This document shows positions 6,704-26,161 of a DNA stretch of 64,000 nt, piece by piece. The position numbers and the translations under genes are program-made. The stretch covers positions 62,001 through 126,000 of the forward strand of contig JAKLIY010000005.1 of NCBI GenBank assembly GCA_022709365.1. Direction: 5' to 3'. Source of the stretch: Pseudomonadota bacterium. Lineage in GTDB: Bacteria; Pseudomonadota; Gammaproteobacteria; Competibacterales; Competibacteraceae. Within the stretch, counting starts at the first letter, position 1. The number at the start of each line of letters is the position of its first letter. The notes under the pieces were generated by a model that saw only the letters and a list, made by a program, of their open reading frames with translations, searched no databases and was not told the origin of the DNA.

Positions 6704-7741
6704 ATGGACACCCTCACTTTTACCCGCCCTGACGACTGGCATCTGCACGTCCGCGATGGAGCTGCGTTGCAGGCGGTCGTTCCGCACAGCGCCCGCCAGT
6801 TCGCCCGCGCCATCATCATGCCCAATCTGCGCCCACCGGTGACCACCACCGCGCAGGCGCTGGCTTACCGGGCGCGGATTTTGGAGGCCGTGCCGGATGG
6901 TGGGGATTTTCAGCCGTTGATGACGCTGTATCTGACTGATCAGACCCCGCCCGGCGAGATCCGCCGCGCCAGGGACTCCGGTCAGATCGTCGCCGGCAAA
7001 CTGTATCCCGCTGGCGCAACGACTAATTCTGATTCCGGGGTTACAGATATTCGCCTTATCTACCCGACGCTGGAGGCGATGCAGATGCAGAAGATGCCAT
7101 TACTGGTGCATGGCGAAGTGACCGATCCCGAGGTGGATATTTTCGACCGGGAGGCAGTGTTTATCGAACGTGTTCTGATCCCGCTGATCCGTGATTTCCC
7201 GGCCCTGAAAATCGTCATGGAGCATATCACGACCCAGAATGCGGCGGATTATGTGCGGGACGCGCCAGCCACGGTCGCAGCGACCCTCACCGCCCATCAT
7301 TTGTTGTATAACCGCAATGCCATTTTCCAAGGCGGCATCTGTCCGCATTATTACTGCCTGCCAATTCTCAAACGCGAGCGGCATCGGCAGGCGCTGCTTC
7401 AAGCGGCGACCAGTGGCAACCCCAAGTTCTTCCTCGGCACCGACAGCGCGCCCCATCCCCGCTCTGGCAAGGAAACCGCCTGTGGTTGCGCCGGCTGTTA
7501 TACCGCCTACACCGCCCTGGAACTGTATGCGGAAGCATTTGAAGTCGCTCAGGCGCTAGAGCGGCTCGAAGCCTTCGCCAGTTTTAATGGCCCGGATTTC
7601 TACGGCCTGCCGCGTAATGTCGGAACGATCACCTTGCAACGCCAACCCACGCCGGTTCCGGAATCATTCCCCTTCGGCGAGGAGCTGTTGATTCCCCTGC
7701 GAGCCGGTGAAATGCTCGGTTGGCAGATGAATTCCAGATAA
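6704..7741 (+). CDS. pyrC: Dihydroorotase
   Basis: Catalyses ring closure of carbamoyl aspartate to dihydroorotate in pyrimidine synthesis. The 345-residue protein is the E. coli PyrC type. Zinc ligands are visible as HLH (residues 13-15) in [10 protein letters not shown], the carboxylated Lys 99 in [11 protein letters not shown], His in LLVHGEVT and MEHITT, and Asp in LGTDSAPH. The last residues QMNSR follow the conserved GEMLGW and run straight into the AT-rich inserted segment. A divergent second copy of this 3' end lies at 13168-13273, so the present C terminus may have been rebuilt during insertion. A TATAAT at 6662 could be its -10 box. Confidence 0.96.
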
Positions 7742-7760
7742 AATTTATTTTAAATAAAAG

Positions 7761-7780
7761 TCCTGATTGCTATCAGGAGG
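7761..7780 (+). promoter_or_regulatory. Hairpin occluding the Shine-Dalgarno site of the giant gene
   Basis: TCCTGAT (7761-7767), loop TGCT and ATCAGGA (7772-7778) form a perfect 7-bp hairpin. The right arm contains most of AGGAGG (7775-7780), the ribosome site for the ATG at 7786. This would limit initiation unless the hairpin is melted, for example by ribosomes ending at the pyrC stop 20 bases upstream or by a regulator or temperature. Confidence 0.65.
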
Positions 7781-7785
7781 ACGTT

Positions 7786-10700
7786 ATGAGAAAAAATTTT
7801 TGGCAATTGATCGAAGCGCTGGAAAATCTGGGTGTTGAAGAAATTCTTATAAAAGAAGTGGTTGATAATATCCAGCAACATAAAGTTGATGTGATTTATT
7901 GGAATGACGATGATAAAGATCGCATCATTCTCCACGCATTTTTTCTAGCCCGAGCAAAATATTTTTTGCAAGATTTTTTAGCAATTCAACCCGATGAGCG
8001 GGAAGTCATTGAAAAATATATTCAGGAAATAGATGAACATGTCGCCAACCATCAATGGCCTACAGATATTCCAGAAGATGATCCGGTCTTGCTCAAACAA
8101 CTGTGGCGTCAAAAAAATATTGAGATCAATCTCGTAAAACAGTCTCCTGATCATGTTGCCCAAGCCGCCCATATTCTGGCTTTAACAAGCGAGAGCAACC
8201 GTATCCTCCGCATCCTACTGAAACTTCCAGTCATAACGTCTGCTTATGGGCAGTATGAACCCGTACTCACCCGTGATTTGGTTTCTGCAATTCAAAAGCA
8301 AACCAATGAGTTCACTAAAGCAGTGATTGAGGAAGAGCTACAGGGACGTTATCCGGATGCCTATAATTTTCTTACCGCATTATATGGACACCGAAATATT
8401 GCTAAGCTCGACCAGTTGATTGATTTAAAAAAGATCAGCAGTCGCGGATTTCTGAAATCCATGGTTCAAAGCAAGGATGCTTTGATAACGCTGATTGATA
8501 ATCTGGCGATTGCGAAGAATTCTTTAGGGGAAATAAATTTTATTAAAATTACAGCATCTTGGGATACTTTAAATAAACTTCGGTTTATAGCTATCCTTGA
8601 TATACATCATTCAGGGGTAAGATTTAATAGATATCAATTAAATTATTCGTTGGAATATTCTGAATTACAAATGCCACCATGGATGCAAGATAGTACTGCA
8701 GGCGAATTAAAAAGTGAAATTACTGGTAGCACAGGAGCTTATGTATTGCTTTATGATAACGCAGTCACTCCTGTATTTAATGAAAAATCCAGGAAGGAAT
8801 TATGTACACACTATATTAATATTCAGGATGACCTGATTAAACCGAACTACGATGCCCTCCAGTTAATTGTCACTCATGCTGATAAAATGACTAAAATGAC
8901 GGCGCAGGCAATTTTTTTATTGCTCGCTAAAATGGTAGAGGCTTACCAGAAAATTGTGCCTCCTGTTGAGGGGGATTTAGTACTCAATCAATATAACTTA
9001 CTCCGGCAAGAATTGGAAATTTATTGGGAAAAGTTGTCTGAAAAAGATGAATTATCGAATGATTTAAGAAGTAAAATTACCAGCCTTAAAGAGTCGCCAC
9101 TTTCTGAAATACAGAGTGTTCACTCTTTAATACGTTTTCTGCATGAAGCTGGGAATCAGGCATTAGAAAAGAAAATGATCCTAGCCCGAGCAGACATAAC
9201 CGTAACCATCGGTTATCTCGGGTCTGAAGAGATCAAAGAAATTCAATTAGCCAAATTGGATGATGCGCCAATTATAGTTAACGGATTGATCCGGCATCGG
9301 GCGATTGCCGCAATTATATCAGCTAGTCGGCAAATCCCAGCACCGATACGCGGCACGTTTGTTGTGATCAATAATCATATTACTTATAGTGTAAAACTTG
9401 GAGAACACCGTGCAGAGTTTTCTGCCAATATTGAGCATCCAGACCAAGAGGGATTTGTTCGATTACAGAGCTATCAGGGAGGTATAGAAATAGAGCAGCA
9501 GTTGCGAGGGGCTTTTGTCGAAAGGGTTCTAAAAGAAAAAGGGATGACGGTTAAGTGTGAACAAGAAGGTTTAGTCGATTCGCTGGTCAGTGGGATTCTA
9601 GATAAGGATCATGGGGCGCGGACTCATAAGCAGATTGAAGAGACTATTATATTTGTATTGCGTTTGATCGGCTCTCTTCGTGATTTAGACTATGCCATGG
9701 CGTATATTTTTTCTCAGGAAATTCTGTCGAATAGTGGCGCAAATCAGATAGATGTCAATAAAATCGATAAATTTGCAGCCTTGTTTGCCAGTATGTTTCT
9801 AGTTGAGGGCATGATCCCGTTTCCGTATGGCGGTGAAGGTATGCCGTTAGCGACCTATTGTGAGTATAACGGACCCAGGATTTTGCAGGACTTTAAGGCC
9901 TATCATTCCAATGAACAGCGGATGCTTCGCCATCGCCTTTATTTTTCGATTAACGCTTTGTTGCGCGCAGTTGAACTGCCTATTATTCAACCTGGCAAAG
10001 GCGGAGTAGGACAGGAGGTGATTGATGAATATTTTAATAAACCTTTGCGAAATGCATTAGGTCGTAGGGAATTGAAGATTAACAATTGGGGATTCATCGA
10101 GAAGAATTCTGACTATCAACCAGTTAAGGAAATTATCGGTAAGGTTATCACCCATGAAAATGAAGCATTGATGATGGCAGTTTTGTTAAAAAAGACTGAT
10201 CTGTATTTAGACTTTAGTATTATTGGCAGTGTTGACCAACTTACGCTGATGAGAGCGCAGCAAGAAATAGCGCCTAACAAATGGCTGGTCGTATATGGTT
10301 TAGCTGATGAAGAAAATCGTGCGATATTATATGCATTCAGTAAGTATTTGAAAATGCAATCAAATGGAGAATGGCTTTCGATTAACGGTCTCAGGAAGAT
10401 ATTGCGTAAGTCGAGTTATACTGCCCTTGGAAAGATTCAAATTCCTGGTTTTCAAAAAGTGGTTTCTCATCGTTTATTAATTGGACAACCGCATGAGTTG
10501 ATTAAGATTATCGGTACATCGGTTAGAGGTTTATCAGCCTCTGTTGGCGATGGATCAGTTCGTATCGGACGCATTACCTTTGACCGCAATTATTATATTA
10601 ACCGACGGGTTCACGATAGGCGCATTCTGTTAGTTCCATTTACGACTCCTGAAGATATTGAAGCGATTCGGTCTGCTGATGCAGTCCTGGTAACTAGCGG

Positions 10701-13152
10701 TGGTTTGTTAAGTCATGCTGGAGTCACTACCCGGGAATTTTCTATTCCTGCTTTGATTCTTCCACATGCCGAATGGTTTCAGTCATCAGAAGGCACTATA
10801 GTTCGTCTTGAAGAACGCTATCCGAGTGAGAAGAAGAAAAACGTGGAGGGATTTTGGGTAAGTGAATCGATAGTTTCTGAAATAGTAGAGGTACATGAAG
10901 GTGATATGATTCTGGTTTGGGCATCGCAAGGCATCGTATCGATTATGTCCATGGGTGAAGATCATCTTGAACAAGTACATAGTTTGATTCAGGGAATTGT
11001 ATTGGATAAAAACACTGCTGTTAATCTTGAATTTCAATTGGCTGGCATTCTACTGAGTATCAGTGCACAAGAGGGGTGGGAGCAGATTGCATCTGATATT
11101 ATGGGTTTGGTATTAGCTGAGGCATTATGGGATAGGCGTATTAATCCTGGTATGCGTAAACAACTTATTGATATTGTACAACACGCCTGTACTGGAATTT
11201 GGATAGACGGTAAGACTATCAAGCTTTCTGAAAAAAGTGCTGCTTATGTTAACACAATGGTGCAACAGTTAACCGGGAATGCTTTGACAGAACTCGAAGG
11301 ATTATTGTCCGAAATCGAGCACAATATATCTAAGGTTAACGTATTATGGAGAGCGCTGATTATTATTGCGGTAGCTGAGCGTCATTGGATGCAAGTTATC
11401 ACTTTAATGAGTAGTTTAAATTTATCCAATCAGCGATTACGATTAATTGAAGAGCGTATTAATAAATTGCGTTACCATCCACGAATAGCTTTACTCAGGG
11501 CATCCGTGCTTAATGAACTAGAATCCTTGTCATCAAAGAATTTGACAGAAGATGATTTGCCACGGGTTCGGCAAACCTTGCGTCGTCTTGGTCATAAGCG
11601 GGATAGTAGTAAATGCCCAAAGATTTTGCTGGTATGTACGGCTAATGTTGACCGTAGCCCTATGGCTGAATTTTTATTGAGAAAAATACTTTTTGATGAA
11701 AAAATAAGTGGTGTTGAGGTCATTTCACGTGGTGTAGCGGCGATTGAAAATAGTCTTATGTCTGAAATAGGTCAAGCTGTACTTTTATCGGAAGATGGAA
11801 TACATGCTGAAACTCACCGTAGTGGAAAGATTACAGAACTGGATATTGAAAGAGCTGACATTGTTTTGACGATGGAATGTTTTCATAGAGATTTGTTGAA
11901 AGAGAAATATCCTTATGCTATGGGTAAGATTTTCTTGCTCAGCGATTATGGGAATATCAAAGAGATTGGCGATATCAAAGACCCGGCAGGTCAGTCAGGA
12001 GACGCCTATCATCGATTAAGGCGAGAATTGCAGCTTTGCTTGACTGGCGCTTTTAAGCGTATGAAAGAAGAGGGCTTATTGGCCAAGGCGATGGTTGAAA
12101 ATTTGCGGATTAAAGCTGATGAGTTGGCCAAAGTAAAAAGACAGCGAGTTGCTGAGTCCGGTCGGATTGTTGTACCAATGGAAGATGTTGATGCCGATTT
12201 TGTCGAGTTAGTCGGTGGAAAAGGCGCTAATCTTGGGGAAATTGCACAGATTGTTAAGCAGCATGGCGCTACTATCCCGCCGGCATTGATGGTGACGACT
12301 TTTGCTTTCCAGCGGTTCCTCGAAGAGAATAGTCTGCTGGATGCCTATGCGGAGATCATAGCGGCTATCGACGCTGTTTTAGTGGCTACAGGAATTTCAT
12401 CTAAGGATCAGTATAGAAAAATTGTCGATTTATTGGAGAAAATTCGAATTTTGATTCTCCAGGGGCGTTTGGAGCCTACTATAGGAATAGGCCGTGAAAT
12501 TATGGAAGCAGTCGATAGTTATAACTTAAAAGATGCTTATCTAAGTGTGAGGTCTTCCGGTTTACAGGAAGATACTGAAGAAGCCTCTTTTGCTGGAGCA
12601 GCGGAGACTTATTTGTATGTTAGCCCTACTGAGTTGTTAGAATGTATAAAGAAAGTATGGGTGTCTTTTTGGCTGATTAGGGGAATTTTGTATCGGCATG
12701 ACCGGATTATTCAGCAAGGACCTACTAAACCGGCAGTTGTTGTGCAGAAAATGTTTCATTCACAGGTCTCTGGGGTAATATTTACCACTGACCCTGTTAG
12801 TGATAGAGATGTGATTGTGATTGAAGCGGGCTATGGGCTTGGTGAAGGAGTCGTTTCTGGATTAGTCGATGTCGATCGGTATTATGTGAATAAATTCGAT
12901 GGTTCGGTGATTAATATCCATATCGGTAAAAAAGCTTTTAAGGTTATGCAACATCCTTCAGGTAAAGGAACATATATAGAATCTGTAGATAATAGTTTGC
13001 GTGATGTTCCTTGCTTAAATGAACAGGATATTAATATTAAAATAGCTATGGCTTTAGAAGAGCATTATGCTTTGTCTCAAGATATTGAGTTTGGTATTAA
13101 TAGTGGCAAAGTGAGTATTCTGCAAACCAGACCGATCACAACGCGTGGATGA
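7786..13152 (+). CDS. Giant permuted PEP-synthase-like phosphotransfer protein with internal LMW tyrosine phosphatase domain
   Basis: 1788 residues. The start is the ATG at 7786, 5 bases after AGGAGG; an in-frame ATG at 7720 lies inside pyrC. Residues 1 to about 920 are mainly helical and unrecognised. About 935-1020 is a swivelling phosphohistidine domain: LVTSGGLLSHAGVTTRE, with His 977 in the position of the phospho-His of PEP synthase/PPDK. About 1280-1430 is a low-molecular-weight tyrosine phosphatase domain: loop CTANVDRS with Cys 1284 and Arg 1290, and the general acid in KDPAG (Asp 1399). About 1465-1788 is a PPDK-type ATP-binding domain: VGGKGANLGEI, SVRSSG (Arg 1589) and the terminal QTRPIT. 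No PEP/pyruvate TIM barrel is recognisable. No signal peptide or membrane segments are seen, so it is probably cytoplasmic. It may autophosphorylate on His 977 and pass phosphate to an unknown acceptor; this is inference. AT-rich codons suggest transfer. Confidence 0.85.
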   Translation: MRKNFWQLIEALENLGVEEILIKEVVDNIQQHKVDVIYWNDDDKDRIILHAFFLARAKYFLQDFLAIQPDEREVIEKYIQEIDEHVANHQWPTDIPEDDPVLLKQLWRQKNIEINLVKQSPDHVAQAAHILALTSESNRILRILLKLPVITSAYGQYEPVLTRDLVSAIQKQTNEFTKAVIEEELQGRYPDAYNFLTALYGHRNIAKLDQLIDLKKISSRGFLKSMVQSKDALITLIDNLAIAKNSLGEINFIKITASWDTLNKLRFIAILDIHHSGVRFNRYQLNYSLEYSELQMPPWMQDSTAGELKSEITGSTGAYVLLYDNAVTPVFNEKSRKELCTHYINIQDDLIKPNYDALQLIVTHADKMTKMTAQAIFLLLAKMVEAYQKIVPPVEGDLVLNQYNLLRQELEIYWEKLSEKDELSNDLRSKITSLKESPLSEIQSVHSLIRFLHEAGNQALEKKMILARADITVTIGYLGSEEIKEIQLAKLDDAPIIVNGLIRHRAIAAIISASRQIPAPIRGTFVVINNHITYSVKLGEHRAEFSANIEHPDQEGFVRLQSYQGGIEIEQQLRGAFVERVLKEKGMTVKCEQEGLVDSLVSGILDKDHGARTHKQIEETIIFVLRLIGSLRDLDYAMAYIFSQEILSNSGANQIDVNKIDKFAALFASMFLVEGMIPFPYGGEGMPLATYCEYNGPRILQDFKAYHSNEQRMLRHRLYFSINALLRAVELPIIQPGKGGVGQEVIDEYFNKPLRNALGRRELKINNWGFIEKNSDYQPVKEIIGKVITHENEALMMAVLLKKTDLYLDFSIIGSVDQLTLMRAQQEIAPNKWLVVYGLADEENRAILYAFSKYLKMQSNGEWLSINGLRKILRKSSYTALGKIQIPGFQKVVSHRLLIGQPHELIKIIGTSVRGLSASVGDGSVRIGRITFDRNYYINRRVHDRRILLVPFTTPEDIEAIRSADAVLVTSGGLLSHAGVTTREFSIPALILPHAEWFQSSEGTIVRLEERYPSEKKKNVEGFWVSESIVSEIVEVHEGDMILVWASQGIVSIMSMGEDHLEQVHSLIQGIVLDKNTAVNLEFQLAGILLSISAQEGWEQIASDIMGLVLAEALWDRRINPGMRKQLIDIVQHACTGIWIDGKTIKLSEKSAAYVNTMVQQLTGNALTELEGLLSEIEHNISKVNVLWRALIIIAVAERHWMQVITLMSSLNLSNQRLRLIEERINKLRYHPRIALLRASVLNELESLSSKNLTEDDLPRVRQTLRRLGHKRDSSKCPKILLVCTANVDRSPMAEFLLRKILFDEKISGVEVISRGVAAIENSLMSEIGQAVLLSEDGIHAETHRSGKITELDIERADIVLTMECFHRDLLKEKYPYAMGKIFLLSDYGNIKEIGDIKDPAGQSGDAYHRLRRELQLCLTGAFKRMKEEGLLAKAMVENLRIKADELAKVKRQRVAESGRIVVPMEDVDADFVELVGGKGANLGEIAQIVKQHGATIPPALMVTTFAFQRFLEENSLLDAYAEIIAAIDAVLVATGISSKDQYRKIVDLLEKIRILILQGRLEPTIGIGREIMEAVDSYNLKDAYLSVRSSGLQEDTEEASFAGAAETYLYVSPTELLECIKKVWVSFWLIRGILYRHDRIIQQGPTKPAVVVQKMFHSQVSGVIFTTDPVSDRDVIVIEAGYGLGEGVVSGLVDVDRYYVNKFDGSVINIHIGKKAFKVMQHPSGKGTYIESVDNSLRDVPCLNEQDINIKIAMALEEHYALSQDIEFGINSGKVSILQTRPITTRG

Positions 13153-13167
13153 CCTCTTTATATCCGA

Positions 13168-13273
13168 CTTTACAGCGTCAGCTAACGCCCATACCGGCGC
13201 TTGCCCCTTTGATCTCGATGAGTCGACTCCCTTACCGGTTGGCGAAATGCTCGGTTGGCGACTGGCGAGTTGA
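13168..13273 (+). pseudogene. Decayed duplicate of the pyrC 3' end
   Basis: Read in one frame the DNA begins TLQRQLTPIPA, matching [11 protein letters not shown] of intact pyrC. After a frame change it continues PF..ES.PLPVGEMLGWRLAS and a stop, matching [22 protein letters not shown]. The spacing of the conserved residues is kept, and GAAATGCTCGGTTGG is identical in both copies, but overall identity is only moderate. It is therefore an old or foreign copy, not a fresh duplication. It marks the right side of the inserted giant gene. Confidence 0.75.
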
Positions 13274-13440
13274 ACATTTTCCCCCGCACCGTTGACGTCT
13301 CTCCTTCAAGAGAAGCGGGGCATCCGGTAGTGTGTTCACTCTAATTTTCGTTGCTAGATTACGCTCCAACATCCGTTGAAACCCGCCGGTAACCATGAAA
13401 ACCGGTATTTTGATCAAGACCTTGTGTCGAGGAGAGTATC

Positions 13441-13830
13441 ATGGCAAACGTTGCACTAAAAAATATCACTGAAGCTCCGGCTGTCGCCAACATCCGTGAA
13501 TCGGCCAATCGCATCTGGCTGGCAGGATTGGGCGCTTTCGCCAAAACCCAGGAGGAAGGCGAGAAGCTGTTCCAGGCTATGGTGGAAGAAGGTGAAAAGA
13601 TTGAGAAGCGCACCAAGGAGACAGCCAGCGCCCGGGTCGAGGAGGCTAAAGGCAAAGTGATTGAATTCCGGGGCAAGGCCAATGAGCAGTTTGATCGCCT
13701 GGAAGAAATGTTCCAAGAGAGGGTCGCCCAAGTGCTGCATCGGTTGGGCGTCCCTACCCAGGACGATATTCAGGAGCTGACCAAACGGGTCGAAGCGCTG
13801 AATGAAAGCGTTATGGCGCTGAAGAAATAA
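13441..13830 (+). CDS. Phasin, polyhydroxyalkanoate granule-associated protein (PhaF/PhaI type)
   Basis: A 129-residue amphipathic helical protein without cysteine or membrane segments. The N-terminal part (ANRIWLAGLGAFAKTQEEGEKLF) is the signature of granule-associated PhaI/PhaF-type phasins, followed by a coiled-coil region ending in LTKRVEALNESVMALKK. It would coat polyhydroxyalkanoate granules and control their size and number. There is no Ala/Lys/Pro-rich DNA-binding tail, so it is the short form. GAGGAGAG precedes the ATG, and an intrinsic terminator follows, so it is a single-gene unit. A second, unrelated-type phasin occurs at 31.8 kb. Confidence 0.88.
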   Translation: MANVALKNITEAPAVANIRESANRIWLAGLGAFAKTQEEGEKLFQAMVEEGEKIEKRTKETASARVEEAKGKVIEFRGKANEQFDRLEEMFQERVAQVLHRLGVPTQDDIQELTKRVEALNESVMALKK

Positions 13831-24325: not shown

Positions 24326-26161
24326 ATGATACAAGTCTGTCCCATTCAAAAGGGGATTGTTGTGGGTGAAGACCTGTCTCGCAAAGAAGGGGAGGCACAA
24401 CGTGCTGTTTTGCGCAGGTGCGAATCCGAGTCGATGCGTAACCTCAGGATGTTCGACGCGATGCCGAATGGCCCCGAAGCTAAGCGTCTTCTGCATGAGC
24501 TTCCACCTGAAGAACGCAAGCGCCTGAATGAGGTAATGAAGCGCATCAACGCCACCTTGCAGGCACAAATGTCAAACGGGGCTGGGCTTCCAGCCGACCA
24601 GCTCGTTCGCTTCTTCCTGGCTGAGTACAACGACAGGCTGCGTCGCTTCGGTGCCCAGTCGATGCCGACCAGCTTCAACATCGCCGAACCGTTTTTTGTC
24701 TTCCCTCGGGGGATTCCCGCATTCCTGCTACGAGACGAGCAGGATGTCTCCTTCAGCTTCACCGACTTTCTCGATTTTGTGACTAGCAGCAATGCACCAG
24801 CACAGGACATGCGGCAAGGCTACACGTTGAAGGAAGGGGTCATTTACAACTTCAACTCTTCAGATGAAATTGGATCCCTCCTGCTGGCGACTGAAAGCGG
24901 CTGTGCTTACGGGTTTTCCGCCGCTGGCATGGTTCGTGTCGGTGACGAACTGTCGATTATGATGGAGTGCGGTGAGCAGCTAACGCCTGAATTGGCAGCG
25001 GAGATCGAGGTTCATGTCGATTGGCCCGATGAGGTAATGATGGCGGGTGCGTCGAACCATTCGATTGATGTAAGCGAGTCCAAGCGAAAAGCGGTCAAGA
25101 TCGGATCAAGCGGCCTTTTTCGGGTCATCCTGTTCATCCGTTTCAACCTTAAGGATGAGCAGATCGACGGCTGGATCTCATACCGTGATATGGGCGACAT
25201 GTTCGATGTTGTCACCAACCTGCGCGAGACCATGTTCAAGCTGCCGCAAGAAGATGAAGATATTCTTGTTAAGCATGCAGAGAGTTACATAGATGATCGC
25301 CCGGTGCTTGTGGAACTCGCCAAGACCCTCACGTTGCTACCCGCCTACTTGGATGCCAAGGTTGGCTCCATTACGTTGAAAAATGTTCGTACCCAGTTGG
25401 GAACATGCCAGTCGTCGCTGAAGGTTAAGCGCACCCTCGCAAAGGCACAGTCGAATAGTCGCGTGATGTTCCGTAAGATCACGTCGATTGAGATCAAACG
25501 CCCGGCACTCATCTCGACGATGAGCGGGCGAGCCTATGTGGCTCCCCGCTACCAAATCCCTATCACGGGCTACTGGCGCAAATTCGCGGATGACTTGCGC
25601 GTCGGTCACGATGAGAGTGGCAACGAGGTTCAGGGGCGGACTTGGGTGCGAGCGCATATCCGCCACAAGGATAAGCCAGCGGCACAGGATCAGCCCAAAA
25701 TCGTCTATGTGAAGGAGTCACTCGCAAAAGCCAAGGCGCTACTTGCAAAGTACCAAAGCGGCCTCATAGGATCCCCTTCAACGCCTGCGCCAACAGCTAG
25801 CGCTAGCCATGTAGCCACATCCGTCGTATCTCCTACGGCTGAAGTTGAGTCGTCCGGCGAGAACGGTGCCTACATCTACGTGATGCGCTGCCCGGCTCAT
25901 GGCACCGACATCTACAAGGTTGGATTTACCACCCGCGACCCTGAGGAGCGTGCTGCGGAACTCTCGCGAAACACTTCAACGCCTGCTGTCTTCCTGGTCG
26001 TTCAGGCATGGGCAGTTACCACAGGTCTTGCGGCTGAGTCAGCAGCCCACCAAGCGCTTGCAGCCCTGCGTATTGCTGGGAATCGCGAGTTTTTCCTTGC
26101 TAAGTACCAGCGGCTGCGTGAGATCATCGAAGGGGCGATCGCTCCCTGGCTTATCTTATGA
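24326..26161 (+). CDS. Large protein with C-terminal T5orf172 (GIY-YIG-like) domain
   Basis: 611 residues. The C-terminal 90 residues (GAYIYVMRCPAHGTDIYKVGFT, TRDPEERAAELSR, and an HQAL..NREFF end) match the T5orf172/Mug113 branch of the GIY-YIG nuclease superfamily: the YIY and YKVGFT pair replaces GIY and YIG, and Arg and Glu positions are retained. Residues 1-420 are an unrecognised soluble region; about 480-510 is a Ser/Thr/Ala-rich linker. GC content is lower than in neighbours. It stands alone beside an integrase remnant and lacks phage neighbours. It could be a nuclease in mobile-element biology or defence; this is inference. The start is uncertain; ATG 24326 is used, and GTG 24362 has a better upstream AAAAGGGGA. 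Confidence 0.75.
   Translation: MIQVCPIQKGIVVGEDLSRKEGEAQRAVLRRCESESMRNLRMFDAMPNGPEAKRLLHELPPEERKRLNEVMKRINATLQAQMSNGAGLPADQLVRFFLAEYNDRLRRFGAQSMPTSFNIAEPFFVFPRGIPAFLLRDEQDVSFSFTDFLDFVTSSNAPAQDMRQGYTLKEGVIYNFNSSDEIGSLLLATESGCAYGFSAAGMVRVGDELSIMMECGEQLTPELAAEIEVHVDWPDEVMMAGASNHSIDVSESKRKAVKIGSSGLFRVILFIRFNLKDEQIDGWISYRDMGDMFDVVTNLRETMFKLPQEDEDILVKHAESYIDDRPVLVELAKTLTLLPAYLDAKVGSITLKNVRTQLGTCQSSLKVKRTLAKAQSNSRVMFRKITSIEIKRPALISTMSGRAYVAPRYQIPITGYWRKFADDLRVGHDESGNEVQGRTWVRAHIRHKDKPAAQDQPKIVYVKESLAKAKALLAKYQSGLIGSPSTPAPTASASHVATSVVSPTAEVESSGENGAYIYVMRCPAHGTDIYKVGFTTRDPEERAAELSRNTSTPAVFLVVQAWAVTTGLAAESAAHQALAALRIAGNREFFLAKYQRLREIIEGAIAPWLIL

Follow-up and report, generated by a model that had tools for sequence, protein, structure and literature searches.

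A 1788-residue dikinase-like protein of the Competibacteraceae with a built-in phosphatase domain and a candidate acceptor-side domain

In the dikinases of this superfamily whose chemistry is known, a swinging histidine domain hands phosphate to an acceptor. PEP synthase and PPDK begin with an ATP-grasp domain (PPDK_N), continue with the swivelling histidine domain and end in a PEP/pyruvate barrel. The acceptor domain can be swapped, as it is in rifampin phosphotransferase and in HpeHI (PMC4844700, PMC12167813); these enzymes, and the HpeHI/PpsAB two-component dikinases generally, have the order ATP-grasp, acceptor, swivel, and in rifampin phosphotransferase Lys22 and Arg117 are needed, their mutation blocking function (PMC4844700). 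The glucan, water dikinases of plants and algae (GWD/PWD) have a long N-terminal region, a catalytic histidine domain (His992 in the potato GWD) and a C-terminal ATP-grasp; the moss GWD is about 1420 residues long, with the dikinase domain at its C terminus (PMC12892837, PMC6805951). The plant phosphatases of this pathway, SEX4 and LSF, are separate proteins.

The window (the whole stretch of 64,000 nucleotides that was analysed) holds a single, intact open reading frame that combines parts of this kind in another way. Its frame is open on the plus strand from a TTG at 7720 to the stop at 13152, and the protein start is placed at the ATG at 7786, just 3′ of an AGGAGG ribosome-binding site. The features of the resulting protein are as follows.

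7786..13152, plus strand: giant open reading frame P0001, 1788 residues, in the order N1, X, N2b, swivel, linker, LMW-PTP, ATP-grasp
7786..9075, plus strand: N1, residues 1-430, without a recognised family, the fastest-evolving part
9091..9705, plus strand: X domain, residues 436-640, with an hhalign match to a dikinase-like protein of genome G237; candidate acceptor-side domain
9718..10500, plus strand: N2b, residues 645-905, well conserved among the homologues, without an outside match
10501..10800, plus strand: phosphohistidine swivel domain (PEP-utilizers, PF00391, 5e-9), His977 codon at 10714-10716
10801..11610, plus strand: linker, residues 1006-1275, without a recognised family
11620..12042, plus strand: LMW-PTP domain, residues 1279-1419 (PF01451, 1e-19), with C1284-TANVD-R1290-S and the general acid D1399-P1400
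12169..13146, plus strand: ATP-grasp domain (PPDK_N), residues 1462-1787 (PF01326, 2e-67)

The Pfam matches, PEP-utilizers at residues 944-991 (5e-9), LMWPc at 1280-1419 (1e-19) and PPDK_N at 1474-1787 (2e-67), all exceed their curated cut-offs. At a threshold relaxed to E<=10 Pfam adds nothing to these three, not even the PEP-barrel family PF02896, and PDB sequence matches are confined to the same three segments. An earlier note on this DNA, made from the letters alone, had proposed a swivel domain (H977), an LMW-PTP domain (C1284) and a C-terminal PPDK-type ATP domain in that order, with no recognisable barrel; Pfam confirms the order and the absence of the barrel, and the residues lie where the note had placed them. 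Its description of some 920 N-terminal residues as unrecognised holds for residues 1-920 in Pfam (E<=10), PHROGs, PADLOC and PDB sequences, but not for residues 436-640, which become recognisable when profiles are compared.

The reading frame is not a product of chance or misassembly, because the same order over some 1.8 kilo-residues recurs in four further genomes at 60-65% identity, and the window copy itself lies inside a 130-kb contig. These four full-length homologues (G004, G010, G043 and G050), which represent three other genera and one congener, carry the same three Pfam domains in the same order, bringing the full-length proteins to five in four genera; a broken copy is present in G005. 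Altogether the gene was found in 6 of the 39 Competibacteraceae genomes (one of the six being the broken copy), the sequences coming mostly from metagenome-assembled genomes. Homologues with the same order, which the earlier note had wished to see sought, thus exist (n=4), all within the Competibacteraceae: outside the family there was no match in 369 sampled genomes of the class, 398 sampled genomes of the phylum, plasmids, phages or viral contigs. A contig scan, which used weak patterns, recovered only three loci, all of them known (in Proteobacteria bacterium UBA2383, Ca. Competibacteraceae bacterium CPB_C95 and Ca. Contendobacter SCELSE-3-Con), and the sensitive searches covered the window's own phylum.

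Compared with PEP synthase and PPDK, the giant protein retains the ATP-grasp and the swivel histidine domain, and differs in having no PEP/pyruvate barrel, in placing the swivel before the ATP-grasp, and in having 900 more residues at the N terminus along with an LMW-PTP insert. Its best NCBIfam match, PRK06464, reaches 251 bits against a cut-off of 598, and its ATP-grasp domain is about 29-36% identical to the PEP synthases of its relatives. The source genome encodes other PPDK_N proteins, one of which has 946 residues and a swivel match and is likely PPDK, so the giant enzyme need not serve gluconeogenesis. A further one, an 881-residue protein on another contig of that genome (C131, L029 604-3249), has its PPDK_N match in the second half and, by eye, a RecA/KaiC-like start. 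With rifampin phosphotransferase and HpeHI/PpsAB the giant protein shares the ATP-grasp and swivel domains and a putative acceptor domain that is not a barrel, and differs from them in domain order. No counterpart of the rifampin-binding acceptor domain was found, the rifampin model NF041857 matching the giant protein only at residues 1461-1786. The earlier note had called the order reversed, which is correct relative to PEP synthase and PPDK; as a novelty the claim falls, since the glucan, water dikinases also run from a swivel to a C-terminal ATP-grasp. We found no description of the domain order as a whole: a literature search returned no paper on an LMWPc/PPDK combination, and no plasmid or phage record covers the phosphatase and the ATP-grasp together.

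The Competibacteraceae are sludge bacteria that accumulate glycogen, glycogen storage being a trait of the family, and the giant protein might be imagined as a bacterial counterpart of GWD together with its phosphatase, acting on the stored glycogen. The relatives all belong to this family, and the passage from swivel to C-terminal ATP-grasp, along with the size, is similar to that of GWD (PMC12892837, PMC6805951). Other comparisons make the idea quite improbable. The giant protein lacks a starch- or carbohydrate-binding module (none in Pfam at E<=10) and a match to the GWD-type swivel family PF22973 (none in the source genome at E<=10), and its phosphatase is fused where that of plants is separate. 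The gene occurs in merely 6 of 39 genomes despite family-wide glycogen storage, and no glycogen genes are found among its neighbours.

The residues expected of working catalytic sites are retained. H977, which sits in SGGLLSHAGVTTRE, is conserved in all five full-length proteins, and the five-sequence alignment also leaves C1284, R1290, S1291, D1399, P1400, K1479, R1589, E1768, Q1780 and R1782 invariant. Equated by motif, K1479 and R1589 probably correspond to Lys22 and Arg117 of rifampin phosphotransferase. The earlier note had said beforehand that the absence of the His, Cys and ATP-site residues from close homologues would count against it, and all are kept in every full-length homologue. 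Synonymous change is near saturation for most homologue pairs (pS about 0.7) and nonsynonymous change is low in every domain, with pN of 0.09-0.23 against pS of 0.39-0.78 in the LMW-PTP domain. Since pN is far below pS throughout, phosphatase included, every module is under purifying selection and all parts appear to be used. N1 and the linker are the loosest of the modules under selection, with pairwise identities of 47-54% and 50-59%, respectively, once the close pair G043/G050 is set aside. The broken copy in G005 and the low GC content of the gene (see below) could be taken to mean that the protein is a degenerate, nonfunctional fusion kept by chance; we find this hardly credible given saturated synonymous change beside a protein conserved in every domain and catalytic residues that are invariant in five full-length copies.

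The N-terminal half offers one link to other dikinases. In a dikinase-like protein of G237 (L059, 1059 residues, from the same class), the domain next after the swivel matches residues 436-640 over 194 collinear columns at 27% identity. The hhalign score is 42.2. None of 150 shuffles scored above 22.5, the reversed sequence gave 16.2, the other domains of the G237 protein 12-17 and five PEP-synthase-like proteins 16-21. H446, R450, H453, H541, Q561, R574, R632 and D635 are among the residues that the two domains have in common. The evidence for the X family is the G237 sequence, the one confirmed outside relative of the domain (n=1). In Pfam order the G237 protein reads PPDK_N (131-438), PEP-utilizers (479-546) and then X; it shares the ATP-grasp, swivel and X domains with the giant protein, and differs in having no phosphatase and in its order, the giant protein reading X, swivel, phosphatase, ATP-grasp. 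Because X follows the swivel there, in the position of the acceptor domain of PEP synthase, we regard it as a candidate acceptor-side domain, and the earlier suggestion that an acceptor lies in the N-terminal region gains support from this homology. The X profile also gives low-bit matches among the sampled phylum genomes (E 0.01-2), which are chance, and a resemblance seen by eye between the N1 helices at 345-430 and helices at the N terminus of the G237 protein was dropped when it did not beat shuffles. Structures predicted for residues 1-1010 and 425-905 had mean pLDDT values of 39.9 and 38.4, and neither an acceptor pocket nor a fold for 1-905 is visible in them.

From the presence, order and conservation of the domains, the selection acting on them and the homology of X, we infer an activity, a kind of acceptor and a phosphatase target. 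The giant protein may be a single-chain histidine dikinase that takes ATP to AMP, serves an acceptor other than pyruvate and has its own phosphatase to reverse or edit the transfer; we would put the probability of this reading, drawn from sequence comparison, at about one half. The C-terminal ATP-grasp would cleave ATP to AMP and phosphorylate H977 of the swivel domain, which would then move over to the N-terminal region, where X (residues 436-640) and its neighbours would form an acceptor site. There the phosphate would pass to an acceptor, most likely a small molecule, in place of the pyruvate of a PEP barrel. The LMW-PTP domain (C1284), situated between the swivel and the ATP-grasp, would take the phosphate off the product, or off one made in error, and would leave the chain able to run in both directions or to proofread. 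A more specific version, in which X is the acceptor site and the phosphatase hydrolyses the dikinase's own product, giving a substrate-gated cycle or else proofreading, is offered only tentatively, as something that could well prove wrong.

What the phosphatase acts on bears directly on this scheme. The CX5R(S/T) loop, catalytic Cys, Arg and Asp-Pro acid of LMW-PTPs are present in all five proteins, with the loop C1284-TANVD-R1290-S-P invariant, and the nearest solved relatives of the domain are the YwlE arginine phosphatases (9e-19). It shares with the YwlE branch the CX5R(S/T) loop and the DP acid, and departs from it in being embedded in a giant chain, in having Val at position PX5 of the P-loop, in replacing the vicinal Cys, the second one of the usual C(X)4CR loop, with Asp (D1289), and in reading DPA for DPY/F. 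The earlier note had suggested a self-regulating phosphotransfer switch. In such a switch the LMW-PTP would strip the protein's own phosphohistidine or a gating residue, the chain toggling between charged and uncharged states and signalling to partners. Swivel and phosphatase are indeed neighbours on one chain, both intact in five homologues, and YwlE acts on a P-N bond, that of phosphoarginine. About 270 residues lie between the two domains, though, and we know of no LMW-PTP that acts on phosphohistidine. Position PX5 is V1288 in 5/5 proteins and not the Thr of YwlE protein arginine phosphatase. Thr at PX5 directs specificity to phosphoarginine and Ile to phosphotyrosine (PMC8001253), and V1288 is of the Ile, aryl-phosphate kind. 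A self-regulating switch is possible and on balance doubtful, less favoured than hydrolysis of a product; the phosphorylated acceptor seems a more likely target than the enzyme's own phosphohistidine, and an outside protein could also be the target.

The gene has a distinctive setting, in which three further features matter.

6704..7741, plus strand: pyrC (dihydroorotase; TIGR00856, 4e-142), whose 3′ end is the left edge of the insertion
13166..13273, plus strand: decayed, displaced second copy of the pyrC 3′ end (ESTPLPVGEMLGWRLAS*), carrying a 19-base repeat
13441-13830: phasin (PF05597, 1e-37), a polyhydroxyalkanoate granule protein, beside the insert

Between pyrC and the phasin gene the giant gene forms a trough of GC content, 40% as against 58-59% in the flanks. 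Along window positions 7700-13300, GC is 38-43% exactly over the gene, with a GC skew of up to +0.28, and about 58% around it. The other four copies are GC-poor as well, at 44-50% compared with 53-60% for their loci; repeated transfer could account for this, as could a long stay in these genomes under loose codon use. The 19-base repeat of the displaced pyrC end also occurs, with one mismatch, at 7706-7724. In the sister genome G005 the phasin gene comes straight after pyrC and the interval lacks the giant gene, window positions 7716 and 13324 mapping to 1060 and 1009. Given this empty site and the decayed duplicate, the window gene lies in an insertion or a local rearrangement at the pyrC end. 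The G005 copy (L019 1-360) comes just after the phasin gene of that genome and is broken at residue 79, where a sequence starting MICPNCHSVNVVKNGS follows that looks like the start of an IS1-type transposase. We do not claim site-specific insertion at gene 3′ ends as a general rule: five loci were tested, and the window alone has a duplicated end.

Elsewhere the surroundings differ. In G043 and G050, which belong to two genera, an F-type ATP synthase operon (b/OSCP-like, alpha, gamma) ends with the giant gene, which starts 2-14 bases beyond atpG (L017 5259-14156 and L018 8103-16810). A few genes downstream of the homologue in the first of these loci (L017 16407-17474) is an alpha/beta-hydrolase-like protein that carries bDLD3, a bacterial death-like domain (1e-24); the window itself encodes at 24326-26158 a protein of 611 residues whose C-terminal domain is T5orf172/MUG113 nuclease-like. 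Neighbours thus vary among genomes and suggest no substrate. The giant protein also evolves fast, since its identity lies far below that of PyrC: between the window and G005 pyrC is 87% identical and the giant protein 54% (over 79 residues only), and between the window and G004 the figures are 81% and 65%.

Such a history would suit a fast-evolving accessory protein used as a weapon or in defence, whose target for phosphorylation is an antibiotic, a nucleotide or a host factor and whose phosphatase is a safety device. The patchy distribution (6/39) is in keeping with it, as are a GC content lower than that of the flanks in each of the five genomes, an insertion for which a sister genome shows both the empty site and a broken copy, and 54-65% identity beside 81-87% for pyrC; rifampin phosphotransferase sets a precedent. 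We nevertheless consider it unlikely: no PADLOC family matches up to E 0.1, the genes examined around it belong to metabolism or to ATP synthase, and no known resistance acceptor domain gives a match, the rifampin model covering nothing ahead of residue 1461.

A non-pyruvate dikinase with its own phosphatase remains the reading we prefer. A fusion of this kind, with a phosphatase in the chain, the domains reordered and another domain on the acceptor side, would show that these enzymes are built of freely rearrangeable modules and that a dikinase can hold its own reverse or editing step. If true, a cycle gated by substrate, or proofreading of this sort, would be something not known for any dikinase. 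The finding also points to the X domain, common to this protein and another dikinase-like protein, as a candidate for the acceptor side of both.
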